The notes under the pieces: generated by a model | Told to the model about the DNA's origin: nothing | What the model saw: the letters and a program-made list of their open reading frames with translations, nothing else | The model's database searches: none | From: Bifidobacterium lemurum | Lineage (GTDB): Bacteria > Actinomycetota > Actinomycetes > Actinomycetales > Bifidobacteriaceae | Length of the DNA: 64,000 bases | Assembly (NCBI RefSeq): GCF_014898175.1 | Contig: NZ_CP062948.1 | Span: forward strand, 2,666,001-2,730,000 | Direction: 5' to 3' | Position numbers and translations under genes: made by a program | Part shown: positions 38,611 to 59,022 of the stretch, piece by piece | Numbering within the stretch: the first letter of the stretch is position 1 | Layout: each line of letters starts with the position of its first letter

Positions 38611-38913
38611 TCAGTCGAGCATCATAGCGTTCACACGATCCACGTCGAGGAACCAGTAATCCTCCGGATCCCCGCGAAGCGCGGTGAACGGTACCAGTTC
38701 AACGCCCTGCTGCGCCGCTTTCGCCATGAGATACCGACGCAATACCCAAGCATCCTCAAGATGCCGCACATTACGTAAGTTCATGACGTCCTCGATTCGA
38801 GACTCGTTCACACTAAGATCGGCCGCCACCTGCACAGGCGTCACGTCTACCAATTCGAAATTCCGCGCGAATTCCCGTCTCGTCGCAGCCTTCTGTTCAA
38901 CGTTCAAAGACAT
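38611..38913 (-). CDS. DUF2316 family protein
   Basis: A 100-residue helical protein of unknown function. It matches the DUF2316 family in layout: NVEQKAATRREFARNFELVD, then VAADLSVNESRIEDVMNL, then LEDAWVLRRYLMAKAAQQGV. The middle looks like a helix-turn-helix (VTPVQVAADLSVNESRIEDV), so DNA binding is possible. GGAGGGG sets the start at 38913. It is 62 bases behind the small zinc-ribbon gene and may or may not share its transcript. Confidence 0.7.
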   Translation of the reverse strand: MSLNVEQKAATRREFARNFELVDVTPVQVAADLSVNESRIEDVMNLRNVRHLEDAWVLRRYLMAKAAQQGVELVPFTALRGDPEDYWFLDVDRVNAMMLD

Positions 38914-38975
38914 AACCCCTCCAATCAGCTCAGCAAGCATACTCCTTTCATCGTTGCGAGCTACCCAGCTGCAGA

Positions 38976-39269
38976 CTATTTCTTAGCGAGGTTCTTGACG
39001 ACTTTTATTGCAACAGGGGCTGCTTTCTTTCCGATTGCGATCGCCGCACTGACAGCACCTGCCGCAACGACCGCCAATTCCGCATGCTTTTCATGGCGTT
39101 TTGCGGCACAATCCCTACACCTTTTGTTGGTGCAGGTGCTTTCCAGCTCGCTACCACAGTCAACACAGTAATTGACGGCGTTTCCTCCCGCGCTACCCTG
39201 GGCAGCTTGATTCGTCTCTACACCTGCACTTTCATCTTCAGTATCTGCCTTCTTCCGAAATAACTTCAT
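38976..39269 (-). CDS. Small zinc-ribbon protein
   Basis: A 97-residue protein that I do not recognise. A charged N-terminus leads to a treble-clef or zinc-ribbon site, YCVDCGSELESTCTNKRCRD followed by C, from about residue 34, and then to an Ala/Val/Lys-rich C-terminal helix (LAVVAAGAVSAAIAIGKKAA) that could be membrane-associated or amphipathic. AAGGAGG just upstream sets the start. It begins 14 bases after the larger zinc-ribbon gene ends, so the two are almost certainly co-expressed and may interact. Confidence 0.7.
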   Translation of the reverse strand: MKLFRKKADTEDESAGVETNQAAQGSAGGNAVNYCVDCGSELESTCTNKRCRDCAAKRHEKHAELAVVAAGAVSAAIAIGKKAAPVAIKVVKNLAKK

Positions 39270-39283
39270 GGGATGCCTCCTTC

Positions 39284-40456
39284 TCATTCCGTTTCGGACT
39301 TCTCCATATCCACTTGCGACGTGTCATCAACAGGCCTGTACGGCTCTAGTAAAGATACGGGAACGGATTCCAGCTCATCTACGCCGTCCAAAGCGACAAT
39401 ACGCCGTCCTATGTCTTCAAACTGATCAACCAAGCTCGGCATCTTGGCCTCCGAGGGAAGGTATGAGTTAATCGCCAACAACGTGTCACGCTCGTCAAGC
39501 CGGTTCGCTTGTATGAACTCCCGAAACTGGTCAAGACACACTTTACTGGCCTCGTTGTGCCCTAACATAGCGTAGCCGGTTCCCTCCACACGCACGGCGT
39601 TGGTGATCTGCACAAGGTCATTGAAAGCGTCCGCGGCTCTCGATCTGTTTCGTTTAGTTATTGCATCCAACGTTTTCCTATCGATACGATCATTCTCATA
39701 GGAACGAAGAGCCTTCACGTTCTCACTGAAATTACGCATCAACGTACGTTTCGCATCCGTAGCGGACGAAATCGCTTGTATCATAAGCGTTTCTCGCAGC
39801 CGTGAATCTTCAATCACACGTGCTTGCATGAGTTTATCCCATGCTCCATCAGCAAGCGCCAGTCGATCGTTCTGCAGATCAATGCGAATTCCTTCAATCT
39901 GGTCACTAAGACTATGCACTTCAGCAAGCACAGCAGCAATAGCGACCTGCGTCTGCAAATGACGCAGAGAGTCAGTCACATCCGGAGGAATCTTTTCCCA
40001 GTCAAGCCTAACCTGTTTGTAATACTTGCCTTTCTCGTCAAGAACATGCGGCAGAATTTGTCCATTCTTGTCTAAGCCAAAGCGCAGCTCATTCGATTGA
40101 ACTTTTTTCATGATTTCAGCAGGGAGATTGGCCACGAGCTTTGCTTGCTCCTTGCCAAGCGATTGTTTAATCGAATCAGCTAAAGCTGGCGCAACAGTTT
40201 GTACAAGTTCCCAGTTGCCAAGAAACCCGAACAGACGTCGACGCGCCTCTACCGGCATATCTATCAGCTCGGGCGTCAGAGTTTTACTACTAGGATTCCA
40301 GCGTTCAATCTCGATTTGGAACCTGGGGACCATCTCGTATGATGATTGCTTTGCAATGGCCGTTGAAGGATCATCCCCTACATAGCCGCATTGCGGGCAT
40401 GACAAGGCCCTATTCGAAATATTGGTCCCACATCCTGGGCACATGATCATGGTCAT
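39284..40456 (-). CDS. Zinc-ribbon and coiled-coil protein of unknown function
   Basis: A 390-residue protein. The N-terminus is a two-knuckle zinc ribbon (CPGCGTNISNRALSCPQCGY, residues 6-25). A region of mixed structure follows to about 150. The rest is mainly helical, with LQTQVAIAAVLAEVHSLSDQ near 175 and long charged helices to about 300. The C-terminal 40 residues are acidic. I see no catalytic motif and no membrane segment. It lies 45 bases after the membrane-protein gene behind brxL and 14 bases before the small zinc-ribbon gene, so it is probably part of the BREX transcript tail. Confidence 0.7.
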   Translation of the reverse strand: MTMIMCPGCGTNISNRALSCPQCGYVGDDPSTAIAKQSSYEMVPRFQIEIERWNPSSKTLTPELIDMPVEARRRLFGFLGNWELVQTVAPALADSIKQSLGKEQAKLVANLPAEIMKKVQSNELRFGLDKNGQILPHVLDEKGKYYKQVRLDWEKIPPDVTDSLRHLQTQVAIAAVLAEVHSLSDQIEGIRIDLQNDRLALADGAWDKLMQARVIEDSRLRETLMIQAISSATDAKRTLMRNFSENVKALRSYENDRIDRKTLDAITKRNRSRAADAFNDLVQITNAVRVEGTGYAMLGHNEASKVCLDQFREFIQANRLDERDTLLAINSYLPSEAKMPSLVDQFEDIGRRIVALDGVDELESVPVSLLEPYRPVDDTSQVDMEKSETE

Positions 40457-40501
40457 GACGTTTTCTCTTTCAATTACGAGTAGTACGGCACCGTTATAGC
40501 T

Positions 40502-41146
40502 TTACCGTCTTAATTCACCTAAGTGTGTGGAAATGCTCCGAAGCGCATACTCAATGTTCTTCATCTGGTCTGCATCCTTAGACCCATATCTTGTTCTACC
40601 CTTCCCCGGTACAAGAATAGGCGGAGTCATACAATCATACGGACAATAGTCCTCATAGAACACTGTCTGCTCTTCACGAACCCACCGATAGTTCACAACA
40701 ATGGTTCCGTACAAGGGCGCTCCCTGCGTCACCACTTTGTTTTCAGAGATAATCCAGCAAATCCGCTTATGCATTCCCGGCATAAGATCAAATCCATCCG
40801 CCATCAATCGTTCCAGATGTTCTTTCAAATATGAATTTTCGTCTTCCCCAATAAGAGCACCATCTTTCAAAGATATTTTCACCTGTCTTGCTGCCGTTCC
40901 GCCACTGTTCACGATTAACAAGTCCCATGTCCCCTGAACGTTGGAAACACTTGGAACAACATCCAAACTAATATAGGGGCGATTACGGTCTTCGCTTTCT
41001 CTCTTGGCTTGTGCCGACGAATCTCTCATTTGCTTAGAAGCAAGATGAATCTGCCAAGCGGCGAAAAACAAAGTGCCAACGACTCCGACAGCACTGACTA
41101 TTGCGCAGACTGCCTGAACAATGTCTGTCCAGCTTGGTGAGCACAT
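40502..41146 (-). CDS. Membrane-anchored protein downstream of brxL
   Basis: A 214-residue protein I do not recognise. One hydrophobic helix near the N-terminus (IVQAVCAIVSAVGVVGTLFF) is followed by a short coiled helix and a soluble domain of alternating strands (RPYISLDVVPSV; WDLLIVNSGGTAARQVKISL; APLYGTIVVNYRWV). The NSGGTAARQV segment recalls a beta-sandwich domain common after single anchors. Its start codon is only 7 bases from the brxL stop, which strongly suggests the same transcript. The role in defence is inference. Confidence 0.7.
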   Translation of the reverse strand: MCSPSWTDIVQAVCAIVSAVGVVGTLFFAAWQIHLASKQMRDSSAQAKRESEDRNRPYISLDVVPSVSNVQGTWDLLIVNSGGTAARQVKISLKDGALIGEDENSYLKEHLERLMADGFDLMPGMHKRICWIISENKVVTQGAPLYGTIVVNYRWVREEQTVFYEDYCPYDCMTPPILVPGKGRTRYGSKDADQMKNIEYALRSISTHLGELRR

Positions 41147-41153
41147 TGCTCTC

Positions 41154-43430
41154 TCACTTCCTCATATACGTGATTTCGAAGTTTTTGACGCGGCGAAGCT
41201 TTTGTTGCCTGATAAGCGGATTAAACCAATCACGATCCGCAATAGGTTGGAAGATATCGAGACCCCGGCCGAGGATGATACGCCAACCGGTGTCGGCTAC
41301 GATGGATCGATCATGGCCTGAATCATCGAATTCCCAGGTAAGCATAATTCCAAACGGAGCAAAGTTAGTCTGTATCTCCGTTAGCTGATCTATCTGCTGG
41401 TCAACATGCTGCTCGTCGGAATGCCCAGTGATGAGGTGGACGTGGATCTCTTCGGTATGATCAGAAAAATTGAATACCGTTTCGAGGAATTCCGCCAAAT
41501 TACGCATCTGATAGGGCATACGAATATATTGATCCTTGAGCGTGATACTCGTAGCTCCAGCGAGATGGCAGCCAAACAATTTATCGTAAGTCACATTCCG
41601 CTGACTCTCTTTAAACTCCCAATGGCCTTCTTGGGCAGCGGCGGCGGCTCGTTCCAGAGGAGACAACGTTTTGACGGGCTGCGTCGGTTCTGACTGCTCT
41701 GGGCTAGCAGTCTGAGAGTTCTCCGCCCGTCGCACTTCAGCCGTATCAGACTCGCCTTCGCCGGCACCATTCTGTATTGCCGCCGATTTCCGTTCACTCA
41801 TATCAGATTCGACCAACACATCAGTGATGTTGGATGTTTTTTGCGGCTCCGCTGCTACACCGACTTCATGTGTAGCAGCATTGACATTTTCAGGTTGATC
41901 TCCAAGCTCAGAGAACTCCGTCTCATCAGCAGCAGATCCACCGCGCCAATACAGTTCCGGATAATCATCCTCTTCCAGAGTATGTACAGCGATTGGTTGA
42001 TCAGAGCCAACGCGCGTATAGCTGAAGTCCACTTCCACCATGGTGGAGTCGATGCGGCACAGTTGGTCTTTAACTCGCTTGCGCCCCTCGATAGCGCAGC
42101 GCAGCAACGGCTCCATCTGTTCGGCGGTTGCTTTTCCATCGGGGTACAAGAGCTTCATCAAGCCTGAGAAGGTCTTGTCAACTCCGTCTTTATCTCGCGT
42201 GGAGATTGAAGGCGACAAGGTGAAATATTTGCGATACGCAGTGCCGTAGTCCTCGTTGCGCAGGTTATGCAAGATTTCCGCTAGATAATCCACCACGAAT
42301 CCGTAGCCTCGTGTGAACATTTCTGAACGGATTTGTTCGAATTCCCAACCCGGCAAGTAACAGTGAATACGATCAAGGAAGGCCGGATCATGGTACTGCG
42401 CGGGCAGTTCCTCGAACAGGTCAGAGTTCTTGAGCATGTATGGCACGTTGTGCGATGTGTTACCCACGAACACCATGCTCGCCTCGCCATGCAGAACATT
42501 GTTGCCGCGCGAGAACGATTTGTTGGCCATGTAATTCTTCATGATGTCCACGAGATCTTTGCCGGCCTTTTTAGCTCGTCCCGCGAACTCGTCGAACGCA
42601 ACCGTATCCCAGTAACCGACCAAACCCATGCGTCCGTTCGCGTTGTTCACGAACAGTTTGGCGACCGTGACCTCGCCACCGGAAATCAGCATGCCGTGCG
42701 GCGAGAACTCCGAGTAAATATGAGATTTACCCGTCCCCTTTGGCCCTAATTCAACCAGGTTATAGTTGCGTTCCACGAAGGGAATCATGCGCACCAAGTG
42801 CAGCATCTTCGCCCGTTCGGAAAACAGCTCAGGGTTGAAGCCAATCGACTGCATGAGCAGATTAATCCATTCCGAATCGGTGAAGTGAGATCGCACTGCC
42901 ACATAATTCTCGCGATCGTCATACGACATCTGCACAGGCATAAGCCGGTGCAGACGCCAAGGCACCTCATCCTTCTCGCCGGAATAGGCATACACCAGCA
43001 TGCACATACACCAAATGCCTGTAACCAACAGTTTCGGATTGTCTTTTACAGTCTGAGCGTCCACGACCACCCGCGATATGCCGAGGTTTTCAAAAGTCGC
43101 CTCATACTGGTCGAGCTTTTCGTTAAGAGCCACCTGCACTTTGTCGATAACCTGATAGCGGCCCTTTTCGCGAATCTTCGACTGAATCAGATTCGCTTCC
43201 TCACGATGCACGTAGTTTTCGGATAATATCTTTCGAACTCGGCCCACGCCAGACTCGATGGTCGCTGAGTCCGTGGTTGTGGCGTATTTACTCAGCAGGT
43301 ATTCCAGCACGTACGAGGGCACCAAGGCATTACCTCTGACCTCACTCACCAAGTCTTTACGAACCGTGTATCCAGAAAACTCATCCGTAATCTTGCGATC
43401 CAACGCGCCCAGCTGAGACTCATCCGTCAT
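41154..43430 (-). CDS. brxL: BREX protein BrxL, with MIT_C-like C-terminus
   Basis: A 758-residue AAA+ protein of type 1 BREX. The N-terminal region (LDRKITDEFSGYTVRKDLVS; VPSYVLEYLLSKY) is typical of BrxL. Walker A is LGPKGTGKSHIYSEFSPHGM near residue 232 and Walker B is WDTVAFDEFAG. SMVFVGNTSHNVPYM is the sensor I region. After residue about 480 comes a low-complexity acidic linker, then a domain from about 613 (SITLKDQYIRMPYQMRNLAE; GWRIILGRGLDIFQ) that closely resembles the MIT_C phospholipase D-like fold. I do not see a Lon Ser/Lys dyad. It starts 13 bases behind pglZ. Confidence 0.92.
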   Translation of the reverse strand: MTDESQLGALDRKITDEFSGYTVRKDLVSEVRGNALVPSYVLEYLLSKYATTTDSATIESGVGRVRKILSENYVHREEANLIQSKIREKGRYQVIDKVQVALNEKLDQYEATFENLGISRVVVDAQTVKDNPKLLVTGIWCMCMLVYAYSGEKDEVPWRLHRLMPVQMSYDDRENYVAVRSHFTDSEWINLLMQSIGFNPELFSERAKMLHLVRMIPFVERNYNLVELGPKGTGKSHIYSEFSPHGMLISGGEVTVAKLFVNNANGRMGLVGYWDTVAFDEFAGRAKKAGKDLVDIMKNYMANKSFSRGNNVLHGEASMVFVGNTSHNVPYMLKNSDLFEELPAQYHDPAFLDRIHCYLPGWEFEQIRSEMFTRGYGFVVDYLAEILHNLRNEDYGTAYRKYFTLSPSISTRDKDGVDKTFSGLMKLLYPDGKATAEQMEPLLRCAIEGRKRVKDQLCRIDSTMVEVDFSYTRVGSDQPIAVHTLEEDDYPELYWRGGSAADETEFSELGDQPENVNAATHEVGVAAEPQKTSNITDVLVESDMSERKSAAIQNGAGEGESDTAEVRRAENSQTASPEQSEPTQPVKTLSPLERAAAAAQEGHWEFKESQRNVTYDKLFGCHLAGATSITLKDQYIRMPYQMRNLAEFLETVFNFSDHTEEIHVHLITGHSDEQHVDQQIDQLTEIQTNFAPFGIMLTWEFDDSGHDRSIVADTGWRIILGRGLDIFQPIADRDWFNPLIRQQKLRRVKNFEITYMRK

Positions 43431-43443
43431 CGTCTACCTCCGC

Positions 43444-46050
43444 TTACATGAAATCAAATCCGTCGTCTGCGACCAAGCCACGCTTCAGCAGATATACCGC
43501 CTTCTGTTCCAGCGTCTTCATTTGGTTGGTTCCCTTGATCTGCTCACGCACGCGCAATTCGACGTTAGAACCATTGCATGCGTCCGCATCGCTGGTAAGA
43601 ACCAAGGTGGCGAATGCATGCCGATTGGCAATCTGCTTGTCCGCCATGTCGAAAGCCACCGGGGTTTCGTTGGAGATTAGAGTGTTTCCGCTCCACAGTC
43701 CGACGAACACGGTTCGCGGTAAGATTTTACTCTCCACTGGTTCATCCTGTACAAGCTCCACAGTCAATTGACCGGTGGTGATGCGATCGTTTTTCTGTAG
43801 GATACGGAAATCAACCGGTCGAGCATCGCCAGCGGCGGTTCGCCCCTTATTGACATGCACCACGGGAACTACGATCTCCTGCAGTGAGGCGCCACCATGC
43901 ACATACCGCACTCCCGTGCCCTGCTTACGCAATCTCAAAATCGAGTTGGGAATCTGCACCGTCAGGCCTTTGTCTGATTGAGTAAGACCGAGTTGTTCTC
44001 CGGTAAAAGTGATGAAGGCGCGGTTAGGAGCCAGATTACGTCCGACAGAGAAACGACGTGCCTTCACCCAGACTTCATCCCCTTGAGGCTGCTCACTCAG
44101 CCACTCGGGATTCTCCACATCATGGTCTTGATAGAGGAAACCATGATCTGCAGTGACAATCATGTTGCTGACATTTGCATTGGCCAGTTTCTTGATTATC
44201 TTGACTAGCTCATCGATGGCCTGGCTGCAAGCGTCGAAGGTTCCAGATTCCGTCTTGTCTGAATCACCAACCGCATCGATACGGTTGTGGTAGACATACA
44301 GCGTATTGCAGGACTTCACCAAATCCCTCGCACCATCACGGTCAAGGGCCATGAAGTCGTCATATTGAATGGCATGACCGTCTACTCTGTTAAGAATACC
44401 GTCCCGATTTTCCGTGCCGGTCGCGCTATGCCCATCCACAACAGCGCGATAATGATCCGATTCGCTCAAGGACAGCGTGTCATGCGGTAGTAAGGCCGCC
44501 ATACCAAGCTGCGTATATGACGGCAGCACACTGCATTGCGCCGATATCCCAGCACTGTATCGATTTTCTGCACTGATTGCGTCAGACAGCTCCTCCGCCA
44601 CCTCATAACGCAGCGCATCAGAGATAATCACCGCTATCTTCTTGCCAGATTTGATGCGCGGCTGCACTTCCCTACGATAGAAATCGCGCTGCGAGGGAAC
44701 ACTGTCAATAGTCCATGAAGACAACGTATCAATCTGTTGCTGCCACGCCTGCCCCAGAGCCCTCTGGAATGTCGTATAAGAGTTCTCTAATTCTTGCCGA
44801 ATCACGGGCACATCATCATCCGCGGAACGCCAAGCAATGGTGAACCGCCGATAGGCTTGATCCACCGCATACAGACGATCACGATACAATACAAAGCCCT
44901 GTTCCGCACTGTTGATGTCATCGATGAGAGGCGGACCATCATCCAGCTCACGACGCAGTACACTCGCAGCAGCAATTGCCTCATATTTTGCGCGGAAATC
45001 GCTGAACCACAAGCCAGAGCGACGCTCGGCGATGATTTTACGTACCATGTCGGCAGGGAGTGAATGCGCGGCAAGCCGTTCGTACATCCGTCCGATCAAC
45101 GCACTGTCCACAGCGCGAAACACACCATGCGGCAGAAGCTCGTCAATATCCAAATCCTGCACTTCGGCATGAATCATCAGATCATCAGCTGCTTCGTCGG
45201 ATAACGCCTTGAATGCATCTTCGAAAGTGCGGTCGTTACGCCAAGATTCAAAATCGCGTCGGATGTTCGCATAAACGTCTGTGCTGGACGATTCTGTGAT
45301 GAATCCTTGCCATGCCAGTCGGAACAGCCATAGCATGAAGTCTTTCACCGACGCTTTACCGCCAGAAGCAGGTTCGTATCGATAAATGAGGCCTGTGCCT
45401 GTCCAATGAAATTCGGACAACCCCATACGTTCAATTGCCATGATGCCGGATTCATCGCCATCGGCGTATTGTTCCAGCAACGCACGCCAAATATCCTGCA
45501 GGCTGTGTTTGCCGTCCCTCAATCCAAGTAGCACAGCAATCATCTTGGCTTGGAATATTTTCTCATCGTCAGAGGCGTTCAGCAGAGCCGACAGTTTGTT
45601 CACACGGCTGTCGCTGTCAAAGAACTTTGTGGTGCGACGCATCACGTCCAGCCATTTGGACTGCGTATCCGGCGTGGTTGTCGGCAAGACCTCAGTGGCG
45701 ATCATCGAGAGCTTGTCGGCCGAAAAGACGGGACCATATGCCAGTTCGAGATCCAGCAGCCAATCGTCTTTAGTTGGTCTGATCTCCTCCTCTGGCACAT
45801 AGACCAGGAACTTAGCTGTCGGAGCCTCCCTAAACATGCGGTAACGCACATTGAACGGGTTATGTTCAATCCGGATGAATCGAACGTCCTGCAGAACAGG
45901 CACAGAGGCGGACTCCCCTACCAGGCCCTCGACCGTGTCGGCATATTGATTTTTCTCATCGCGCCAAAATACAATGCGGCCACGTTCGCCGTTGCGACTG
46001 AATCGCTCTGCTAAGAGTCTCGAAATCTGATCAAGCTCACTCATGTACAT
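43444..46050 (-). CDS. pglZ: BREX-1 phosphatase PglZ, type A
   Basis: An 868-residue protein of the alkaline phosphatase superfamily and a BREX core component. The metal-binding core has KIAVIISDALRYEVAEELSD near residue 505 and SNMIVTADHGFLYQDHD near 640. FVYVPEEE-like text (KFLVYVPEEEIRPTKDDWLL) near 85 marks the N-terminal domain of type A PglZ. The start at 46050 is ten bases after GAGAAG; an ATG two codons later and a TTG six codons earlier are also in frame. It lies 14 bases behind the Abi gene and directly before brxL. Confidence 0.92.
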   Translation of the reverse strand: MYMSELDQISRLLAERFSRNGERGRIVFWRDEKNQYADTVEGLVGESASVPVLQDVRFIRIEHNPFNVRYRMFREAPTAKFLVYVPEEEIRPTKDDWLLDLELAYGPVFSADKLSMIATEVLPTTTPDTQSKWLDVMRRTTKFFDSDSRVNKLSALLNASDDEKIFQAKMIAVLLGLRDGKHSLQDIWRALLEQYADGDESGIMAIERMGLSEFHWTGTGLIYRYEPASGGKASVKDFMLWLFRLAWQGFITESSSTDVYANIRRDFESWRNDRTFEDAFKALSDEAADDLMIHAEVQDLDIDELLPHGVFRAVDSALIGRMYERLAAHSLPADMVRKIIAERRSGLWFSDFRAKYEAIAAASVLRRELDDGPPLIDDINSAEQGFVLYRDRLYAVDQAYRRFTIAWRSADDDVPVIRQELENSYTTFQRALGQAWQQQIDTLSSWTIDSVPSQRDFYRREVQPRIKSGKKIAVIISDALRYEVAEELSDAISAENRYSAGISAQCSVLPSYTQLGMAALLPHDTLSLSESDHYRAVVDGHSATGTENRDGILNRVDGHAIQYDDFMALDRDGARDLVKSCNTLYVYHNRIDAVGDSDKTESGTFDACSQAIDELVKIIKKLANANVSNMIVTADHGFLYQDHDVENPEWLSEQPQGDEVWVKARRFSVGRNLAPNRAFITFTGEQLGLTQSDKGLTVQIPNSILRLRKQGTGVRYVHGGASLQEIVVPVVHVNKGRTAAGDARPVDFRILQKNDRITTGQLTVELVQDEPVESKILPRTVFVGLWSGNTLISNETPVAFDMADKQIANRHAFATLVLTSDADACNGSNVELRVREQIKGTNQMKTLEQKAVYLLKRGLVADDGFDFM

Positions 46051-46064
46051 CACCCGACATCTTC

Positions 46065-47195
46065 TCAATTTATAGAGTATCTCAGATCATCAGTTGACCG
46101 GGCTACCAACAAATCATGGCTGGAGGCATAACGATGATTCTGTACGTAAGCTCCAGAACGCATGTGCGGAATGTCGCCATTAGGCAGCACCAGATGACCA
46201 TCATCGCCTTGCTTGCTTCCTCTACAGGGAGTTAGCAGCAGCACCTTATAGCCATTTTCAGAATTCGCCCACCCATGAGCAACTTCTCTGCCTTCACTGC
46301 TGAACGCCCATTCAAGCGCATGACCAAGTTTACGATTCATCACATCATCAGATGCGCATAAGCGTTGAGCCTCTTCCTCATTCCAAGGAACTTGATCAAA
46401 TACCCGCAGGATCATTGGTATTTGAGATCGAATACTTCTGTTCTCATAAAAGGCCAGATACCTCATATCACGGAAGAAACGCTCAGGCTTGCAGACATAG
46501 ATGGGCTGATACTGATATATATCCCAAGCCACGCGACCTGGGACAATCAGCGTGTCCGTGTCAATCTGCGGGCACTGATCGTATACTTCGCGCCATCTGC
46601 TTGCATCGCGCTCCAGCCATTCCCCGTATTGAGGCGATATGAGATAAGCGAGTCGAAACACATCCTGCATTGCCTTCGGAATATCAAATGCCTTCAAGAA
46701 GTTCTGATGTGCAACTCGATTTCGAGTAATACGAACGCTCTCCACCAGCCCTGCAATCGTTTTTCGTGTCACATGAGGATTAATACCCTGAGCAAACACT
46801 TTATACAGGCATTGCCTCCATAACTCCTCATGCTTTGCATTGAAAAGATGCGACCAAAACCCAAACGTGAGTGTGGCGATGATACGATCGCGCGAATCAG
46901 GCCTCTTTGCTTTTGCATTCTGTTCACGCGCCCCAGCAATGCTCGCAAGATCCTCGTCATTCAGCCCAGAGCACAGCTGCAGAAACCAGGGAATTCCCCG
47001 CTCGTCTTCTTTACAGTACTCTTTGAACACTTGATCCACAGCGTTACGCAACAGCACTTCCAAGTGTCCAATGGTTGCAAAACATTCCGCAGCCATGCGG
47101 CTGTTCCACACATAGAGCTCCACGGCTCGGTTAAGATCTCCGCCCACTTCTTGGAGGTACTCATTCAGTCGAATCGGACTAATCCCCCGCTCCAC
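46065..47195 (-). CDS. Abi family protein inside the BREX locus
   Basis: A protein of about 376 residues resembling the Abi_2 abortive-infection family in its actinobacterial form: ISPIRLNEYLQEVGGDLNRA, ELYVWNSRMAAECFATIGHL with EVLLRNAVDQVF, and NRVAHQNF (an R-x4-6-H like HEPN element) near 200. The C-terminal half is not recognised. I place the start at a GTG (47195), 15 bases from the insertion sequence end. The frame runs on into the IS, so the true N-terminus and promoter may have been lost. It lies 14 bases before pglZ. Confidence 0.7.
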   Translation of the reverse strand: MERGISPIRLNEYLQEVGGDLNRAVELYVWNSRMAAECFATIGHLEVLLRNAVDQVFKEYCKEDERGIPWFLQLCSGLNDEDLASIAGAREQNAKAKRPDSRDRIIATLTFGFWSHLFNAKHEELWRQCLYKVFAQGINPHVTRKTIAGLVESVRITRNRVAHQNFLKAFDIPKAMQDVFRLAYLISPQYGEWLERDASRWREVYDQCPQIDTDTLIVPGRVAWDIYQYQPIYVCKPERFFRDMRYLAFYENRSIRSQIPMILRVFDQVPWNEEEAQRLCASDDVMNRKLGHALEWAFSSEGREVAHGWANSENGYKVLLLTPCRGSKQGDDGHLVLPNGDIPHMRSGAYVQNHRYASSHDLLVARSTDDLRYSIN

Positions 47196-47209
47196 AACCT
47201 TGTTCCGAG

Positions 47210-48677
47210 GTTCGTCATTAATAAGTGAGCGCGTAATCGTTGTTCGTTTGTCGTAATGGGTGAGCGCGAAACGGTGCCTGCGATCTATTTGTCGTTTTGT
47301 CCGGCGTCGGCGCGCATGCGTTCGATCGCCTTTCCCAAGTATCCCATGTCCAGGCCGGCGCGGCGGGCCATCGCCTCGGTGCGGTCCCGGCTGACGCGTT
47401 CGAGTTCGTCCTGGATGACGGCGATCTCGCGGTTGAGGCGGGCGGGGTTGGTGGCGGCGATGATCCCCTCGATGCGGCGGCGGGCGTCGTCGACGACGTA
47501 TCCGCCGCCCCCGGCGGCGCGGTCGGCGGCGTCGTGCTCCAGCACGCGCGCCCACGGGGTGCGGGGCTCGTCGTACACGGTCTTCCTGCGCCCGTCGCGC
47601 CCCTGGTCGACGCGCACGGGCTTGCGGGTGGGCGTGAACAGGTTCAGCAGCACGTAGGTCTTCGCCCACAGCCGGTTGAGCAGCTCGCGCTGCTGCGCGG
47701 TGTCGTAGCGCCAGTGGAACGCGTATTTCCTGACGACGTGGTTGTTGCGCGACTCGACGGTGGCCTGGTCGTTCTTCCTGTACGGGCGGCTGCGGGTCTG
47801 TTCGATGTCCTGTTCGAGCAGCCAGTCGACGAGCTCGTCGTTGATGAACTCGACGCCGTTGTCGGAGTCGAAGCAGGTGACGGGAAACGGGAAGAGCGGC
47901 AGGGCGGTGGCGACCGCTGCCTTGATGTTGGATTTGGCATTGTTGCGGGCGGTGACGTTCACGGTCCAGTTCGTCGCGTAGTCCACCATCGTCAGGGTGC
48001 GGGCGAACTCGCCCTTCATGCTGGGCCCGCAGTGGGCCACGGTGTCTGCCTCGGCCAGGCCGGGAACGCGGATTGTCTCGTCGGTGCATTTGCGGATCCT
48101 GATCGAGTTGCGCATGTGCTCCGCGGCCGGCCGGGTCAGCGACGCGCCCTTCGGCATGGCGGCCTGTTTGAGCGGTCTGAGCCGCCGGTCGATGGTCGAC
48201 GGACTCATCGCCAGCACCTGGTCCAGCGCGTCGCCGTCGATGCCGTCGAGCTCGCCGTTCGCCAGGAGCGCGGGAATCCACTGGTCGAACATGGCCTTCA
48301 TGTACGGGCCGCACGGCATGCCCATGAGCAGCCACAGGCGCTCCAGCAGCCGCTGCGCGCCCGCGTCGTACTTCGGCCGCCTGCCCCGCGCCGCGCCTTT
48401 CACGGGTTTCTCCCTCTCCGCCTGCGTGAGCAGCCGCCGGGCGGTGGACCTGCCCATCCCGACGGCCTCGAGGCGGTCGAGGATCTCGCCCTTCTGTTTC
48501 TTGTCGCCCTTGGCGTACTCCGCCTTGAACCTGTTCGTCAGCCGTTTTCTCGTGGCCATGTCCAGTCTGCCTTCCATAAGGCAAGCATCCCCGCGAACGA
48601 CGCGGGCCGCGCGGGATTTCGCGCTCATTATTTATGACGAACGGAATCCAATTTCGCGCTCAAACATTACGACGAAC
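47210..48677. mobile_element. Insertion sequence with doubled terminal motifs
   Basis: An element of about 1.47 kb. Each end holds two copies of a motif running from GTTCGTC through about ten variable bases to TGAGCGCG(AAA): left at 47210-47233 and 47243-47271, right (reversed) at 48652-48677 and 48617-48641. The ends are thus imperfect inverted repeats, possibly extending to CCGAGGTTCGTC at 47206 and its counterpart GACGAACGTCGG. I see no clear target duplication. It sits between the OLD-type nuclease gene and the Abi gene of the BREX operon. Confidence 0.8.
47285..48559 (-). CDS. DDE (rve) integrase-core transposase
   Basis: A 424-residue transposase. The N-terminus is a helix-turn-helix region (LEAVGMGRSTARRLLTQAER) with a second near SPSTIDRRLRP. 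The catalytic core has the first Asp in LAEADTVAHCGPSMKG, the second in CFDSDNGVEFINDELVDWL, and the Glu in QATVESRNNHVVRKYAF. GGAAGG ten bases upstream favours the ATG at 48559; the frame is open to 48628. It appears intact. The family is a long rve-type transposase; the exact IS family is not assigned. Confidence 0.88.
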   Translation of the reverse strand: MATRKRLTNRFKAEYAKGDKKQKGEILDRLEAVGMGRSTARRLLTQAEREKPVKGAARGRRPKYDAGAQRLLERLWLLMGMPCGPYMKAMFDQWIPALLANGELDGIDGDALDQVLAMSPSTIDRRLRPLKQAAMPKGASLTRPAAEHMRNSIRIRKCTDETIRVPGLAEADTVAHCGPSMKGEFARTLTMVDYATNWTVNVTARNNAKSNIKAAVATALPLFPFPVTCFDSDNGVEFINDELVDWLLEQDIEQTRSRPYRKNDQATVESRNNHVVRKYAFHWRYDTAQQRELLNRLWAKTYVLLNLFTPTRKPVRVDQGRDGRRKTVYDEPRTPWARVLEHDAADRAAGGGGYVVDDARRRIEGIIAATNPARLNREIAVIQDELERVSRDRTEAMARRAGLDMGYLGKAIERMRADAGQNDK

Positions 48678-50985: not shown

Positions 50986-53625
50986 TTAATATTCAGCTTT
51001 CCCTTCAAGGGGATGGACAGGCCATGTCCAGGTGGAGACTTCTTGGCGTTTGCGTTCTATGGCGGGGATGGCTCGGAGGGCTTTGCCCATGCGGAGGTAG
51101 TTAACTAGGACTCCGTCATCGAGATCCATTTCCAAGTTGCGTGTGGCGAGAGGATACAGCACATCATCCTCGTAGGCTTTGCACTCAGTTACGGCTCTAC
51201 GTAGTTTCTCGGCTTCGCGCTTGTCTTGGGCACGGTCGGACTTGTCAAGCTGCATAGCCTGATCAGCGATTTTGACCGTGAAGTCACGTAGGTATTCAAG
51301 CACCTTACCGGTGGTTTGCGGCGTGCAACGATGCAAGTACACCAACGCCTTGAATGCACCCTTGTTATCGGTCCGGCTTGAATATTGCCAGTAAATCGGC
51401 CGATTCGAGTACATCTTGACGTGATCGTTGTAAAAATCGTTGACGAAATACTTACGAAGCGGCTTACCCAACACGCGTTCAATGTAAGCGACGTTTTCCG
51501 TAAGATGATCTTTGCCGAAGGCGACTTCAAGGAACCTGCGGAATCGCGACACAATATCATCCCCAAAGCAATCAGTTTCCGTCACAGGAATGACATTGTC
51601 TTCATCCGGCATAAATGACGGTTCAGGAACATGCTTCAAGTAATCCGCAATTGTCTCACCTTGTGAAGCCAGAATGAGTCCTGGCTTGTCCAGACCGTAA
51701 CGGCCAAACATGCAGCCAACTGCATAGGAGATAAGTTCCTTGACTACATCGCAGGCAAACAGCTCGTCACGCTCAGCCGGCGTGTTCTTAGGATAAGCAA
51801 ATGCCGCATTACGCTTCAATGATACGCGCTCCAATGGCACATCTGTTGGGACATCGCCAACCACGTCATAAACTTTAGCCACAATTTCGTTATTACGGAT
51901 TTCATTTGACTGTTGTATATGCGACTGTTCATTCCAATGTTCATAGAGCCTAACAACTGACTGCTCAAGACTGAACATCTTATCAGCAGACTTAAGCAAG
52001 TCATTTTTTTCATAGCTCCATGATGTCTCAAATGAATCCCAATCAGTTTGAGCCATATGAACCATCTCGTGAGCAAGATTAACAGCAGCAGAATTCTCAG
52101 TAAGATAAAACGGCAATCTAGCAAGCTGGCCAGCTTCGAAATTTAGCGTAGGCGAAATTGCCATAAGAAGCTGTTGTGCAACAGAAGAATTCCCAAATGC
52201 CAATAACGGCCATAGCAAAGTATTATCTGTTGGAAACATTGAACAACCCGCGACATCAAACACAAATCCCTTTGGGAAAAGTCTGAATGCAGTTGTTCCA
52301 GAAGAAACTTTAGACCAAGATACGCAAGGCAAAAAATAAAGATGCGGGCTATTGGGACGAGAACCCTTTAGAGAAGCCATATATTCTCTACCATATACAT
52401 CATACCGTATTACTGATGACGCATTTCCATACCACTTGCGGTACTCTCCACCTTTATTGTAGGGAAACCATTTTTTCCCATACAAGTCGACTGAGTTATT
52501 GCTGACACAATCATCCGTAAAATCATCGAAACTTATCTCAAACCATTGCCGGAGAACTGAGTCGTTATTACCTGTAGACATACCATTTTTTAATTGAGCG
52601 AATTCGCTAAGAGGTTTACCTGAGGAAAAAGCGTGAAGCATGGCTTCAGAAAGCCAATAGACAATCGGAGAGCCTGGGATTTGAGCAAATTCAGACTGGT
52701 TGACAGTGTAACGCAGACCACTTGGCTCCGAGTTCTCCGCCGCGAAAGCGTCTGCTTGAGCCTGGTCTCCATGCACATCCACCAATCTTGTATATATGCC
52801 AGCGGATTGAGGTTCATGCTTCGCAAGAGTAAACGCTGTAGTGGAGACGACTTCGCCTCCAATAGCATCAAACGCTCCAGCGCCCAAGTGAGCCATCGTC
52901 GATATTTCCGTATTTGCTAGCAACAGTTGCCGCATACTCTCGAATGACGAGAGAAACATCCAGCTTTGCATAGTAACCATGGCGAGCACACCGTTGGATT
53001 CCACCAAATGAAGGTTACGCAGCATAAATGCAGCAAACAAGTCAGCTTTGCCATCCTCAAAATGATCTTGAACGTATCGCTTCAAGTCACTGCCCATATT
53101 CTTGCCGCCCATATAGGGAGGGTTGGCAACCACACATGCATATTGATTCGAGAGCAACTGTGACTGCCTAATAACAGTACCCACACGAGACAAAGTATCC
53201 GACCCCATCAGTGACAGATCATTCCAAGTCACATCATTAGGAACATCTTGCCAACGCAGTTCCTTAAGCTGGCTTAATTCTGATGGAGGGATAATCAATG
53301 AACCCTCGACATCCGCATTGGCGTATGTATTCCACACATCTTCATCTAATGTGACATCGTAGAGTCGGTTGAGATCTTCAATTTCTGTAGAGTTGAACTC
53401 TTCCTCGGCAATGAGCTGGATGTTCGGTAACACTTGGTTGCGGAAGAATCGACGGGACTTGGCACGAGCCTTCATGGTCAGGGCGAAGGCGGCGAGATTT
53501 GCTGCGCGTTCGTCGATTTCCATGCCAAAGAGGTTATGTTTCAGAATCAGACCGGGGATTTCACTGGGGGAATAGCCTTCGTCTTCATAAATCTGATAGA
53601 GCAGGTCGAAGGCGTAGGTGAGCAT
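50986..53625 (-). CDS. pglX: PglX adenine methyltransferase, C-terminal part after a stop codon
   Basis: The 879-residue second part of the BREX-1 methyltransferase. SAM motif I (VCDPACGSGHMLTYAFDLLY) straddles the first Met of this part, and the catalytic motif CVVANPPYMGGKNM is near residue 165. The target-recognition region follows, ending in a conserved C-terminus (STWTWPVHPLEGKAEY). The frame is open and continuous with the N-terminal part up to one TAA at 53782-53784. No ribosome binding site is obvious for the Met at 53625, which falls inside motif I, so this part alone would be defective. Confidence 0.9.
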   Translation of the reverse strand: MLTYAFDLLYQIYEDEGYSPSEIPGLILKHNLFGMEIDERAANLAAFALTMKARAKSRRFFRNQVLPNIQLIAEEEFNSTEIEDLNRLYDVTLDEDVWNTYANADVEGSLIIPPSELSQLKELRWQDVPNDVTWNDLSLMGSDTLSRVGTVIRQSQLLSNQYACVVANPPYMGGKNMGSDLKRYVQDHFEDGKADLFAAFMLRNLHLVESNGVLAMVTMQSWMFLSSFESMRQLLLANTEISTMAHLGAGAFDAIGGEVVSTTAFTLAKHEPQSAGIYTRLVDVHGDQAQADAFAAENSEPSGLRYTVNQSEFAQIPGSPIVYWLSEAMLHAFSSGKPLSEFAQLKNGMSTGNNDSVLRQWFEISFDDFTDDCVSNNSVDLYGKKWFPYNKGGEYRKWYGNASSVIRYDVYGREYMASLKGSRPNSPHLYFLPCVSWSKVSSGTTAFRLFPKGFVFDVAGCSMFPTDNTLLWPLLAFGNSSVAQQLLMAISPTLNFEAGQLARLPFYLTENSAAVNLAHEMVHMAQTDWDSFETSWSYEKNDLLKSADKMFSLEQSVVRLYEHWNEQSHIQQSNEIRNNEIVAKVYDVVGDVPTDVPLERVSLKRNAAFAYPKNTPAERDELFACDVVKELISYAVGCMFGRYGLDKPGLILASQGETIADYLKHVPEPSFMPDEDNVIPVTETDCFGDDIVSRFRRFLEVAFGKDHLTENVAYIERVLGKPLRKYFVNDFYNDHVKMYSNRPIYWQYSSRTDNKGAFKALVYLHRCTPQTTGKVLEYLRDFTVKIADQAMQLDKSDRAQDKREAEKLRRAVTECKAYEDDVLYPLATRNLEMDLDDGVLVNYLRMGKALRAIPAIERKRQEVSTWTWPVHPLEGKAEY

Positions 53626-53688
53626 GTGGCCAGAACCGCAGGCGGGGTCACAGACGGTAAGAGATTCTGGGGTGATGATGGAGAGGAG

Positions 53689-53721
53689 AGCCTTCGACTC
53701 GCTGCGCTCACTCAGGATGAC
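53689..53721 (-). repeat. Palindromic repeat unit inside pglX
   Basis: On the minus strand GTCATCCTGAGTGAGCGCAG, then CGAGTCGAAGGCTC, belongs to the family seen at 2239. It is read in frame as SSVILSERSESKALLS in the linker just before the SAM-binding motif of PglX. Confidence 0.65.
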
Positions 53722-53781
53722 AGAAGAGGCATCAGCGCTCTCAATGACGGAAGAATCCTCATCATCAGCAGTATTGACTGG

Positions 53782-54645
53782 TTAGATGTAGTATTCCCAG
53801 GTTTTGTAAAGCTGGCAGTCAGGGTGGTTCTGCATCCAGAGACGACCGACGCTGTTCTGCACAAGGTATCGCACTATCCAATCGGGGGTGAATAGCTGGG
53901 TTGCTGCTGGAATCTCGTTGGCACCGGCTTTCTTGGATTTCTTGAATCCAGCCATCACCTCGTCTTTACGTTCGGCGATGTAGAACTGGTAGAGCCAGCC
54001 GATGATCTCCACATCCTCGCAGTCCTCAGGTGTCATCACCTCGATCGCCCGGCGCAATACAGAGCCTTCCGCAAGCAGATCAGCCGGCATCAGCAGCTCA
54101 TCAATCTTGCCAAAAGTCGAGTTCGTGTTCTCGAACATGAACGGCATGAACTTATGCCAATACCGGCATTCAGCCTGCAGGAGTAAACCATAGGCTTGCC
54201 CCTGCGGGTCGTCAGAATGTGTGGAGCCGTTGAACAACGCTTCCACAGCATCGCGTAGTTTGGCGTTCGAAGTGCCGGTGGCCTCGAATACATTCGAGTC
54301 ATACTCACCGCGTTTCGCAGCCGCCAACACCTCAGGCAGGCCGTTGACATCTGTCACATCGGCCGCGGAGACCACTGGCATGGAGGTGAATCCGTGCGCA
54401 TCCATGTAGCGAAAGGCGATGATGCGGTTGAACCAACGGTAGGCATACCGCTCCACCACATGGTCTTTGCCCTGCTGACCACCACCGTATTTTCTCAGCT
54501 CTTGCTCCAGCTGATTGAATACGTTCGGACTGTTCACCTGAACCGGAGAGTTCGGAACCAGTGCAGCTTCCAACCGTGCGGATACCGCGCCCATGAAACT
54601 GCGACGGGCTTCAGCAGCAAAGCTCTGCAATTTCGATGTATTCAC
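53782..54645 (-). CDS. pglX: PglX adenine methyltransferase, N-terminal part ending in a premature stop
   Basis: The 287-residue N-terminal domain of PglX: LQSFAAEARRSFMGAVSARL, VVERYAYRWFNRIIAFRYMD, and LFTPDWIVRYLVQNSVGRLW close to the end. It stops at LYKTWEYYI-TAA, where intact relatives read on with Glu-Pro; a single G-to-T change (GAA to TAA) would explain it. With the downstream part in the same frame the full protein would be about 1219 residues, the normal size. The ATG overlaps the brxC stop by four bases (ATGA), so the two are translationally coupled. Confidence 0.9.
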   Translation of the reverse strand: MNTSKLQSFAAEARRSFMGAVSARLEAALVPNSPVQVNSPNVFNQLEQELRKYGGGQQGKDHVVERYAYRWFNRIIAFRYMDAHGFTSMPVVSAADVTDVNGLPEVLAAAKRGEYDSNVFEATGTSNAKLRDAVEALFNGSTHSDDPQGQAYGLLLQAECRYWHKFMPFMFENTNSTFGKIDELLMPADLLAEGSVLRRAIEVMTPEDCEDVEIIGWLYQFYIAERKDEVMAGFKKSKKAGANEIPAATQLFTPDWIVRYLVQNSVGRLWMQNHPDCQLYKTWEYYI

Positions 54646-57600
54646 AGTAGAATCCTCTCCCCTTGTTCGACGACAGCAACAAGCTTACGGCGATATGCAT
54701 CTAAGAACTCGTCAATGTCCTGCTTGGTTTCCAGTACATCTTTGATATGCGGCTTCGCAATAGTGTTGATATGAACACTACGCCTGACGGGACGATCGAT
54801 CGTTTTCTCAGACTGATCGGAATGCGACACGTTGACCTGAACGGATGCAACGAGCTGATTCATTAGCCGCGGATACTTGTTCTCCTGCGCATCACGAACG
54901 ATCGTCTGAATGTTCCCGATGACCGATGTCTCGTCCAAGCTCCGGCGAATTTGCTGCATGATTCGATCCACTGTGGACTGCATGGACTCAGATGCCGACC
55001 GATATGCGTCAGATTCTCGCATAGACCCAGTGAGTGTGTCGATTGCCGCATAAGCGTTCTGACGCGCCTCATCGACACTGGTCTTTACAGCGGTCTGCAA
55101 CTGCTCAACAAGATCCTTGAATTTGTTGACTGTATTTCCTCGGAACAGTGTCGGGCTTATTGCCAGATCGGATGCTTGGCGGAACAATTGTTGCACATCG
55201 GTAGGCATCAATGGCTCATTAGGCCGATTGCGCTGTAACCACTCATTGTTCGCGGCAAACACTGCCGCTTGACTGCCGTGGAAGAACTCAATAACCGGAT
55301 CGATGACATCATCCTTGGCATCGAGCAATTCTTCAGAACCATGTTCGGCATCGACATCGGTGAATTCATCCAGCAGCCAGGCTTCGCCTTTTCTGGAAGC
55401 GTAGGTGATGGCAGTAATGGGTTCAGACAGGCAATCGATGAATGCGAAATCCGCATGACGTGACTTCAACTCGTTCAAGTCAATAGATTCATCCACCAGC
55501 TTGTTCTTAATCACTGACGCCAAATCCATAGGCATGGTAGGAAGTTCAGATGCAGTCAAGCCGAAGAAATCCCTTGCAAACTCACGTAATTTTGCGACCT
55601 TTCTAGAATCAAAGGTCTTTGGAATGGTCACCAGCATGGATTCCTGCTTTTTCGTGCTGCGTAACATCGCCGCGGCTTCGGTACGTTGCACGGGTTTAGC
55701 ATCCATGGTCAGTTCAATGTTCTCGGCACCATACAGGTAACCGATGCAGGCAAGAACAGCAGCATAGGGCCATCCGTATGGCGCAGCGGCATACTGCACA
55801 ATAATCGCTTTAACCGTCAAAGCAACGTTTTTATCCCTGCTTTCACGAGTAATGAATGACAGCACGTCATCGGATGGACTTTTGAGTTTATCCTCAGCGA
55901 CGTTGGCTTCTGCGAAGGTACCCGGCTGAGTCGCAGCGGCACCAGCGATAACGCCCGCCAGCCCGGACTCCTCATAATGCACTCCACCGAGCATCGGGAA
56001 ATTAGTGTAGTAGCGGCCAATCAATACCTGCATGCCTTCGAGCACATGCGCTTGAGGATCTGTGGCTTTGACCTCGACAATTGCACCGTTGTATACGAAC
56101 GTACCTGCCTTTACGGCGTTACCCACACGAGTACGCAATTCCTTACGTAGATTCTCTTGAGCGGCTCGTTTACCCGCGATGATGCGCTGCCTGCTCTCAG
56201 ACTGGCTTCCGGAATCCGTACGGCGTAGATAAGTCGCGGTTTTCACATGCATACGGATATCGTCAAACAACGTCGTATCAGCATTGTCAAGCAATAATGT
56301 GATGGCATCTCGGGCTCCCATGCTGTTGGTGATGGCATCCGCGCGATCGGCTTCGTCGCCTGATGTCACTACGTTCAACCATATTGAGCGTGGAGTGGTT
56401 TGCTGCACTTGATCGATTTTCAGGCCAAAATCAAAGTCCGCCTTCTGAGGCCCATATTGAACCTTCATTTTGCCAATCACATCGCCTACAAGAATGTTCT
56501 TGAATTCGGCAATCATGTCGGTATGGTCGATATCGACGTTCTTGATTTCCTGCTCAATATCCTGTTCCTCGTTGGTGAGGTACTCGTAGGATTCCCCCAC
56601 ACGCTGCACATAAGTATTTTGCTCAAGCACGCGCAACGCTTCACCAATCTGTCGTTCCAGATCCAACATGTCTCCATTGAACTTGTCGGTCAACAGAATA
56701 CGCAGATTGTGCGGTGTGGCAGGGAACCCGTCTACATGCTTGACCAGCAGCAGCACTTTCAGCAGTCGTACGCAAATATCGTTCACCGCAGGATCAAGCA
56801 CCTTCTCAGCCTGATGGATGCGATAGTTCACCGTGCTCTGGATAGCGTCGCTGATGCCGTCATACAACCTGTCGAACGGAATAAGCTCTCCAAAGGCTGA
56901 TTCTTTGGCTCGCTGCAGCGTGGTGCTGATTGCAGCGAGCATTGAACGCTCCCCCACGGAGGCATGACGTCCATCGAACATATTGTATTGGCTCATACGA
57001 CGCAACGCGGTTTGGAACAGTTCGAACTCATAGTTCACCAGCGGATAGCTTGCAATGAAATCTTCTTCATCGAAAGCTTTCGTGGTGCTGAATTTTGCAG
57101 TATTCGAAGGGAACTCGAACATCGTGCGCATGTTAGGCCCCTGCTCATGCCATAGATTCTGCATCAGGTCAGCGTATTCAGGTTTCTTGGAAAGCAGACG
57201 CTTCTGAATCACCTCAATCACATCGGCGCTGTTGAGCTTGAGCTTAATGGCGAATCGGGCTTGAATCTTGGAGAAATCATACCCCTGCTGTTTGGTGCGG
57301 TCGCCAACGATGGTGTCCATATCTTCCTGCGAGGTAACGACCACCCATGCACGGCCATTGGTTTTCACGGCAAGATCTTCGGCTACGGATTGCAACTGAA
57401 GCATCAGCTCGGTGTTTTGTCCAATGAACTGGCCTACTTCATCCACCAGAAATACGATGCGATGGTTGGGGTCCGGCTGTTGTTCAAGCCAATGCTTCAC
57501 GTCATCGGCGAAATCACCCACAGCGGCGTGATAATTGTTCTCGTATCGCTCGATAATGCTATCTTGCGCGGATTTGCCAGTCACCTCTGCATAAGCCTCA

Positions 57601-58335: not shown

Positions 58336-59022
58336 TTATGCACTCATCTCCATAAGGTCTCTCGCCCGGTAATAGTTGTCTTCTGGCAGACAACCGAACA
58401 ACGTCATGGTCGAACCGGAAACGGATCTGCTGGCGTATACGCCAGGATAAAACAGCACCAACGGGCAATCATCAATACGTCCCTGAAGCGTATTCAGTAA
58501 CGTATGAGCCCTCACATAGGGGTAGACCTTACCCACACCGGTGATGAATAGAATATCCGCATTGCCTTGCGATCTCGCCTCTTCGTAATGACGGCTGATA
58601 AGGTCGGGAACTTGTTTCGCATCCGCTCCCAACATGTTGTTCAACAGGCTAAGGAATTTATCTTCTCGAACATTCGAGGACACGATTTGATGACGCCTTG
58701 CTTCGATATCGAGAACTTTATCGAGCACCTTACGCTGTTGCAATGCTTCGATGATGATGTCGTAAAGGTCTAAAATCAATACTTTCGGAGCGAAATCACC
58801 GGCACGTTGAGGTGTCATGGTCTGCAATTGCGAAACCAACGTCGGAATATGCTCTATAACCTCGAGTTCCTGTTCGGGCGGATAATCGTAGATGTAAAAC
58901 GCCTGTTCGCCAGCCAAACCGCTCCCCTTGCGGAACGATTCGTCTTCCATAATTCGACGAAGCTTCGCGAAATCCTCATCGATATTGCGTCGCTCATCGA
59001 TGCTGGTCACATCGTCGGACAT
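58336..59022 (-). CDS. brxB: BREX protein BrxB (DUF1788)
   Basis: A 228-residue protein of the DUF1788 family, a BREX core component of unknown biochemical activity. FYIYDYPPEQELEVIEHIPT near residue 45, KVLILDLYDIIIEALQQRKV near 85, and DILFITGVGKVYPYVRAHTL near 155 with LVLFYPGVY are the conserved segments. The pattern of hydrophobic strands and helices suggests a small alpha/beta fold. It lies between brxA (36 bases upstream) and brxC. Confidence 0.93.
   Translation of the reverse strand: MSDDVTSIDERRNIDEDFAKLRRIMEDESFRKGSGLAGEQAFYIYDYPPEQELEVIEHIPTLVSQLQTMTPQRAGDFAPKVLILDLYDIIIEALQQRKVLDKVLDIEARRHQIVSSNVREDKFLSLLNNMLGADAKQVPDLISRHYEEARSQGNADILFITGVGKVYPYVRAHTLLNTLQGRIDDCPLVLFYPGVYASRSVSGSTMTLFGCLPEDNYYRARDLMEMSA

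Follow-up and report, generated by a model that had tools for sequence, protein, structure and literature searches.

A transferable zinc-ribbon gene pair of defense islands, with a copy behind brxL in the BREX locus of Bifidobacterium lemurum

The analyzed stretch of 64,000 nucleotides (the window) comes from a genome assembled as a single contig of 2.97 Mb, and it carries a BREX locus with three further genes, ORF1 to ORF3, behind brxL. We found that this tail is two things. Judged by the company it keeps, ORF1 is a lineage-specific BREX accessory gene that does not belong to the cassette formed by the other two genes. ORF2 and ORF3, on comparative sequence evidence, form a conserved two-gene unit that is horizontally transferable as a unit and linked to defense systems in general. 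We propose, with a probability of about 0.5, that the pair is an autonomous, transferable defense-island cassette, comprising a sensor (ORF2) and a membrane effector (ORF3), that landed behind brxL. The original prediction, which treated all three genes as one undescribed accessory module of the BREX operon, is partly supported: such a module is still the best reading, but for the ORF2-ORF3 pair rather than the trio.

The brxL tail and its BREX locus

Our recheck of positions (Table 1) bears out the gaps of 7, 45 and 14 bases first described behind brxL, and the genes are real and lie on the minus strand. The last gap depends on the start of ORF3, which is most likely the ATG at 39269, since a strong AAGGAGG stands before it; an upstream ATG at 39287 would give a protein of 103 aa. 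Chance open reading frames can be excluded because homologs keep the frame and, for ORF2 and ORF3, the order and overlap as well. Transcription of the tail together with brxL as one operon is plausible, as the coding strand shows no terminator-like site between 38300 and 44000 and the four promoter-like matches in that region are at chance level (mean of 5.2 in shuffled sequences). One of the four, at 40473-40446, overlaps the start of ORF2. A DUF2316 gene on the same strand as ORF3 is a possible fourth co-transcribed gene.

Table 1. Genes of the BREX locus and its tail, with positions in the window
Feature	Position	Strand	Description
brxA	59059-59799	-	Pfam match (brxB/brxA: PF08747, PF08849)
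brxB	58336-59022	-	Pfam match (brxB/brxA: PF08747, PF08849)
brxC	54642-58268	-	PF25796, PF25791
pglX-like methyltransferase	50986-54645	-	two pieces: 879 aa (50986-53625) and 287 aa (53782-54645)
Abi_2-like gene	46065-48584		839 aa; between the OLD/TOPRIM gene and pglZ; weak Abi_2 region at 475-628
pglZ (BREX type 1)	43444-46068	-	TIGR02687, 627 bits (cut-off 270)
brxL	41154-43430	-	PLD-like (MIT_C/HKD) C-terminal domain replaces Lon; PF16565, 3.5e-36, at 613-757
ORF1	40502-41146	-	214 aa; predicted membrane helix and beta-sandwich; BREX accessory gene by its linkage, outside the cassette
ORF2	39284-40456	-	390 aa; zinc ribbon, predicted alpha/beta part and helical bundle; first gene of the cassette
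ORF3	38976-39269	-	97 aa; small zinc-ribbon protein with hydrophobic, positively charged tail
DUF2316 gene	38611-38940	-	35 bases behind ORF3

The BREX locus is of type 1 and comprises brxA, brxB, brxC, a pglX-like gene, an OLD/TOPRIM gene, an Abi_2-like gene, pglZ and brxL. The BrxL protein carries the motif HDRSIVAD (HxRx4D) at residue 706, and this BrxL-HKD variant has already been described: one part of a BREX survey (PMC12839542) counts 1030 cases in 2913 BrxL-bearing type 1 taxa. The two pieces of the pglX-like gene share a reading frame that is interrupted by an in-frame TAA at 53782-53784, and a 1183-aa relative aligns across the break (55%). This BREX system may be without a normal methyltransferase; alternatively, the sequence record may hold an error. 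The pglX gene of another genome, G052, likewise reads as two pieces, which there overlap, of 233 and 989 aa (L085 5673-9270). The Abi_2-like gene has weak PADLOC matches to PD-T4-5/AbiD, and in G040 a relative at 62% is found between brxC and pglX.

None of the three tail proteins reaches the cut-off of a Pfam or NCBIfam family or finds a PADLOC match at E 1 or better. The BREX core families (BrxA, BrxB, BrxC, PglX, PglZ and BrxL) were unmatched by ORF1-3 in all three collections, in agreement with the initial impression that no known BREX component is among them.

ORF1 is modeled by AlphaFold (mean pLDDT 72) with a long N-terminal helix, strands between residues 59 and 171 and a low-confidence C-terminal helix. 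A fold search gave nothing at E 0.001 or better, its best matches being beta-sandwiches of TRAP subunits, Kir channels and GAE domains, and the predicted combination of membrane helix and beta-sandwich looks general in kind. All three Bifidobacteriaceae genomes with a clear match, a count that leaves out a fourth, weak partial match in G184, have the gene linked to BREX; in G080 and G081 the homologs (50-51% identity) lie directly behind pglX, within the BREX locus. The slot between pglX and pglZ in these two genomes (L089 4485-8855 in G080; L086 4584-9127 in G081) holds the ORF1 homolog first and further genes after it. Distant relatives occur in 9 of 296 genomes of the class, the source genome included. 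A tblastn search with the window's proteins over ~10 kb around four of the eight distant relatives (L213-L216) found no BREX genes; beside the relative in L216 is an OLD-like gene. PHROGs v4 yielded one weak match for ORF1.

The view of the trio as one unit does not survive comparison across 189 Bifidobacteriaceae genomes: ORF1 is present in 3 and ORF2 in 20, and no genome but the source shares the three-gene order. Elsewhere other genes precede ORF2, and ORF1 was therefore rejected as its constant partner.

A conserved two-gene unit, transferable between genomes

ORF2 was first described as a zinc-ribbon/coiled-coil protein. The ribbon stands: cysteines 6, 9, 20 and 23 are at least 90% conserved in a 41-sequence alignment, and the zinc-ribbon matches are significant, if below the Pfam cut-off (Zn_ribbon_3, 23.4 of 27 bits). 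The plain coiled coil does not, as the predicted structure (mean pLDDT 76) has an alpha/beta part and a helical bundle besides the N-terminal zinc ribbon, and its fold has no clear match in the PDB. Conserved residues are found along most of the length of the alignment, including a stretch around LQNDRLAxADSAWDKL. Our database search with ORF2 returned 76 matches, itself included. Identities of its homologs span 68% to about 31%, and the family is named in databases at most as a "zinc ribbon domain-containing" or "hypothetical" protein. Homologs matching most of the length come from three phyla and include members of the Bifidobacteriaceae, Arcanobacterium, Collinsella, Clostridia, Erysipelotrichaceae and Chloroflexota (two bins).

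Scanning genome contigs with ORF2 gave 80 loci. At 31 of these the match covers at least 338 of the 390 residues, and 25 of the 31 are outside Bifidobacterium; the other 49 match at most about 150 N-terminal residues, mostly the ribbon, and were used as controls. Five of the 20 Bifidobacteriaceae genomes with ORF2 hold remote relatives (G070, G127, G131, G132 and G143), which are left out of the context counts below together with a second partial match in G040; ORF3-like genes stand behind four of these five, the number that was fetched. A phylum-wide profile search found ORF2 in 40 of 396 genomes, over most of its length only in the source genome and G395 and mainly in the ribbon in the others.

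The small second protein has the motif CVDC-x10-CRDC (CxxC-x10-CxxC), followed by a hydrophobic, cationic tail with a net charge of +7. Across the family, the net charge behind the ribbon is +3 to +10 and the stretch is moderately hydrophobic. A membrane span is not certain, since many members have a modestly hydrophobic tail (best 19-residue mean of 1.2-2.3). Some bifidobacterial tails (KYGPK) may resemble leaderless bacteriocins, a likeness absent in clostridial members. ORF3 has no match in PHROGs v4.

Conservation of the pair is seen in several ways. Of the 31 near-full-length scan loci, 29 have an ORF3 homolog as the next gene after ORF2, and in the two without one (L104 and L108) the ORF2 frame ends early. 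With 17 family loci and the window added, the homolog is present in 47 of 49 loci, representing 41 distinct ORF3s; this set excludes L029, which is the L108 locus, and counts five other Bifidobacterium loci twice. In 44 of these 47 loci ORF3 begins before ORF2 ends, with starts assigned by a script from ATG and ribosome-site score. Pairwise identities of the two proteins are strongly correlated (Mantel r 0.88, 0 of 2000 permutations) among 37 distinct ORF3s, the four remote ones being left out.

Comparison at the DNA level, covering 9 of 45 possible pairs among ten clostridial-type loci, delimits a unit of ~1.4 kb with 81-93% identity, from about -60 to +1350 relative to the ORF2 start, between flanks that differ. 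For five of the nine pairs (L097 with L099, L096 and L102; L099 and L096 with L100), identity is 83-93% over a stretch that starts 60-79 bases ahead of ORF2 and ends either immediately behind ORF3 or up to about 190 bases further on. The shared stretch is longer in other pairs: L097 has 355 upstream bases in common with L100 and 164 with L118 (81%), L096 and L102 share the AIPR gene as well, and L105 and L106 share 9.9 kb. The cassette is flanked by AIPR and Mrr in L096, GmrSD in L097, CD-NTase (SMODS), SLATT and Schlafen genes in L099 (Arcanobacterium), a helicase and GmrSD in L100, type III restriction and AIPR in L102 (Blautia), and no defense gene in L118.

Protein identities cross taxonomic boundaries in the same manner. 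The Arcanobacterium ORF2 (L099) is 96% identical to that of a Clostridia bin, which belongs to a different phylum, and the ORF2 of one Bifidobacteriaceae genome, G008, is 92% identical to the form in the same Clostridia bin (L096) and 41% identical to that of the window. Copies of 90-98% identity occupy six different neighborhoods, five of them with a recognized defense gene; the one in L118 lacks a defense neighbor though its ORF2 is 92-96% identical to copies beside defense genes. On a viral-classed contig (L217) the genes are ordered as in the Blautia locus L102, and recombinase-, holin- and amidase-like genes (assigned by eye) follow downstream; among 47 loci in IMG/VR, L217 is the only one that matches most of ORF2. 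Plasmid and GenBank phage records hold no match to ORF2 at 1e-5, and an origin of the cassette in plasmids or lytic phages was rejected on that basis.

The association with BREX may likewise be one of several arrivals. BrxL is present in 25 of the 189 Bifidobacteriaceae genomes and occurs together with ORF2 in five, in four of which the cassette is at the edge of the BREX locus. It stands on the same strand directly behind brxL, and is followed by a GmrSD gene, in G082; it is behind brxL but convergent to it in G040, so that it would not be read from the brxL promoter; and in G081 it is divergent and lies ahead of brxA, from which two small predicted genes separate it. ORF2 and BrxL are on different contigs in G031. 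With the window excluded, three BREX neighbors among four genomes would arise by chance at about 1e-5 (~30 kb target, ~2.5 Mb genome). Because the cassettes differ in place and strand, their arrangement suggests that they arrived at BREX separately.

Defense neighbors and possible roles of the cassette

Outside Bifidobacterium, a gene of the restriction, Abi, CBASS or helicase type lies no more than about 5 kb away in 17 of the 25 loci. L098 and L110 are counted here because they are nearly identical to scanned loci; L105 and L106 owe their place to a pair of UvrD and DEAD/MZB helicases, and L119 to a DUF6094 methyltransferase-helicase. The context is ambiguous in three (AAA_14/DUF4143 in L115, dynamin-like in L123, kinase/VWA/PP2C in L124), and no defense gene was found nearby, mostly by eye, in five (L104, L112, L114, L118 and L121). 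Defense-type neighbors recognized by Pfam comprise hsdS/hsdR, AIPR, Mrr, GmrSD, SMODS with SLATT and Schlafen, AlwI, MvaI/BcnI, ResIII and Abi_2. Within the Bifidobacteriaceae, 10 of 15 loci with a most-of-length ORF2 have a defense gene within 5 kb: BREX in four, a cytosine methylase with MvaI/BcnI in three (one scanned, two assigned by the same genes), GmrSD in two and a Schlafen-type helicase in one. None was found within that distance in G149, G031, G035, G084 and G103, although G149 has a sub-threshold methyltransferase match within 5 kb and a T5orf172/ResIII gene further away. With four BREX loci, six beside other defense genes and five beside none, the idea of a BREX-specific cassette was rejected.

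A comparison with PADLOC points the same way. At 1e-10, 58 neighbors of 30 cassette loci (without L110) match 238 families, whereas for the 49 ribbon-only loci the nearest neighbors of 150 aa or more, 90 proteins, match 34; this contrast is rough, in that related models inflate the counts, no family is matched by more than 3 of the 58 neighbors and the control taxa differ. The control matches include mad3 in 5 of 90 and AriA in 4 of 90. A trio lying mostly outside defense loci had been named as evidence against the original prediction; the trio occurs once, and for the pair such a distribution was not borne out.

Two loci have further features of their own. MmeI-type domains flank the cassette in L113 (1844-6690), with the N-terminal and spacer domains upstream and the methyltransferase and recognition domains downstream, as if the cassette lay inside a broken MmeI-like gene. 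In L107 (3673-8107) a 327-aa gene plus a 394-aa hsdS, in two tandem copies, stand ahead of the cassette (second copy Pfam-confirmed).

As to function, ORF2 may be a cytosolic sensor or regulator that senses infection, or the failure of a neighboring DNA-targeting system. ORF3 would be the effector: its hydrophobic, cationic tail would keep it at the inner membrane and its own zinc ribbon would bind it to ORF2, until ORF2 lets it disturb the membrane and the phage is stopped or the cell sacrificed. We were led to an effector kept by its sensor because a small, cationic, membrane-seeking protein stands behind a larger, soluble partner and the two are conserved together. The quarter to a third of loci without a clear defense gene counts against reading the pair as a defense cassette. 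More tentatively, and with some doubt on our part, the pair might be a general plug-in last line of defense in several phyla, fired by a common sign that a first layer has failed; the first layers meant are type I-IV restriction, BREX and CBASS, in or behind which bacteria would insert this transferable, membrane-acting pair.

The best rival to the sensor-effector reading, which we nevertheless hold to be the less probable account, is that a restriction or BREX complex holds the pair inactive and that inhibition of this complex by a phage releases it to kill at the membrane, in the manner of PrrC and EcoprrI. Embedding in hsd operons, found in some loci only, would fit: in L095 and L107 the cassette has hsdS on one side and hsdR on the other (both genes Pfam-confirmed), and it precedes hsdR in L109 (Pfam-confirmed) and its near-copy L110, much as prrC is embedded in a type IC operon whose complex sequesters the product, as covered in part of PMC3874165. 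The partners, however, are too varied for one fixed interface (type I, II and III restriction, BREX, GmrSD and CBASS), ORF2 copies of 90-98% identity stand beside different partners or none, and Pfam, NCBIfam and PADLOC reveal no nuclease or ATPase domain in ORF1-3.

The overlap of the genes, the small, cationic, hydrophobic second protein and the presence of the pair both on the viral-classed contig L217 and in islands would also suit a toxin (ORF3) and antitoxin (ORF2) that stabilize defense islands and prophages and have no direct antiphage role. We consider this unlikely, as the conserved residues of ORF2 span most of its length and it has no match at 1e-5 among plasmid or GenBank phage records. 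ORF2 is also large for an antitoxin. It is quite unlikely that the pair serves as a tether or assembly factor, bringing DNA-targeting complexes to the inner membrane at the point of phage DNA entry without any killing: zinc ribbons in both proteins, the membrane-like tail of ORF3 and the predominance of DNA-targeting systems among the scanned defense neighbors are compatible with it, but the cassette is also found beside CD-NTase/SLATT (L099) and Abi_2 (L122), where DNA tethering would be unneeded. An unrelated, selfish or housekeeping passenger gathering in islands that tolerate insertions is similarly improbable, for although the five loci listed above from outside Bifidobacterium and G031, G035, G084 and G103 have no recognizable defense neighbor (judged mostly by eye, with one neighbor scanned for L118, L121 and G031), the cassette is also found within hsd operons and, more than once, immediately behind brxL or GmrSD genes, and its neighbors differ from the controls in PADLOC.

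If the sensor-effector reading is right, a widespread two-gene family would be a missing defense component in gut anaerobes, bifidobacteria included. The near-identical ORF2 copies in varied neighborhoods offer a natural experiment on whether layered defenses communicate or merely share an island.

Comparison with known systems

Literature searches of open-license PMC papers, without preprints, gave no title or abstract opening that refers to the ORF2-ORF3 pair. In PHROGs v4 the entry phrog_31650 is matched by ORF2 at 3.1e-45 (residues 1-332 against 1-319 of 360 profile positions) and by the L096 form at 3.1e-33. This is the same protein family in viral or proviral sequences, but the entry carries no assigned function and gives no partner or context.

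The sensor of the Juk system, JukA, is a YaaW-type protein and is not known to resemble ORF3. JukB is the best PDB match of ORF2, though a weak one (TM-score 0.22/0.30, with a Z-score within noise for helical bundles), and it is absent from the 12 matches of a PDB profile search with ORF2 at E 10. Homology between the two, suggested by predicted structure, is a lead only; JukB reportedly acts as a pore former in the early vesicle of jumbo phages, according to part of PMC13282480.

Auxiliary or backup effectors of BREX resemble the tail in being extra genes in or beside BREX operons, but those cataloged in the relevant part of PMC12839542 are nucleases, whereas ORF1-3 have no nuclease domain recognizable by Pfam, NCBIfam or PADLOC. 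The terms "zinc ribbon", "zinc-ribbon" and "ZnR" are absent from the main text of that survey. Zinc ribbons also occur, along with coiled coils and Ig-like domains, in the CoCoNuT type IV restriction systems, as described in part of PMC11090510, but these systems are built on McrB/McrC-type proteins, and Pfam, NCBIfam and PADLOC show no such domain in ORF1-3. PrrC, in the part of PMC3874165 that concerns EcoprrI, shares with the cassette the position of an extra gene within an hsd operon; it is an anticodon nuclease, whereas ORF2 and ORF3 show no nuclease or ATPase domain and the cassette also stands beside many other systems. Set beside all of these, ORF2-ORF3 is best read as an undescribed defense cassette.
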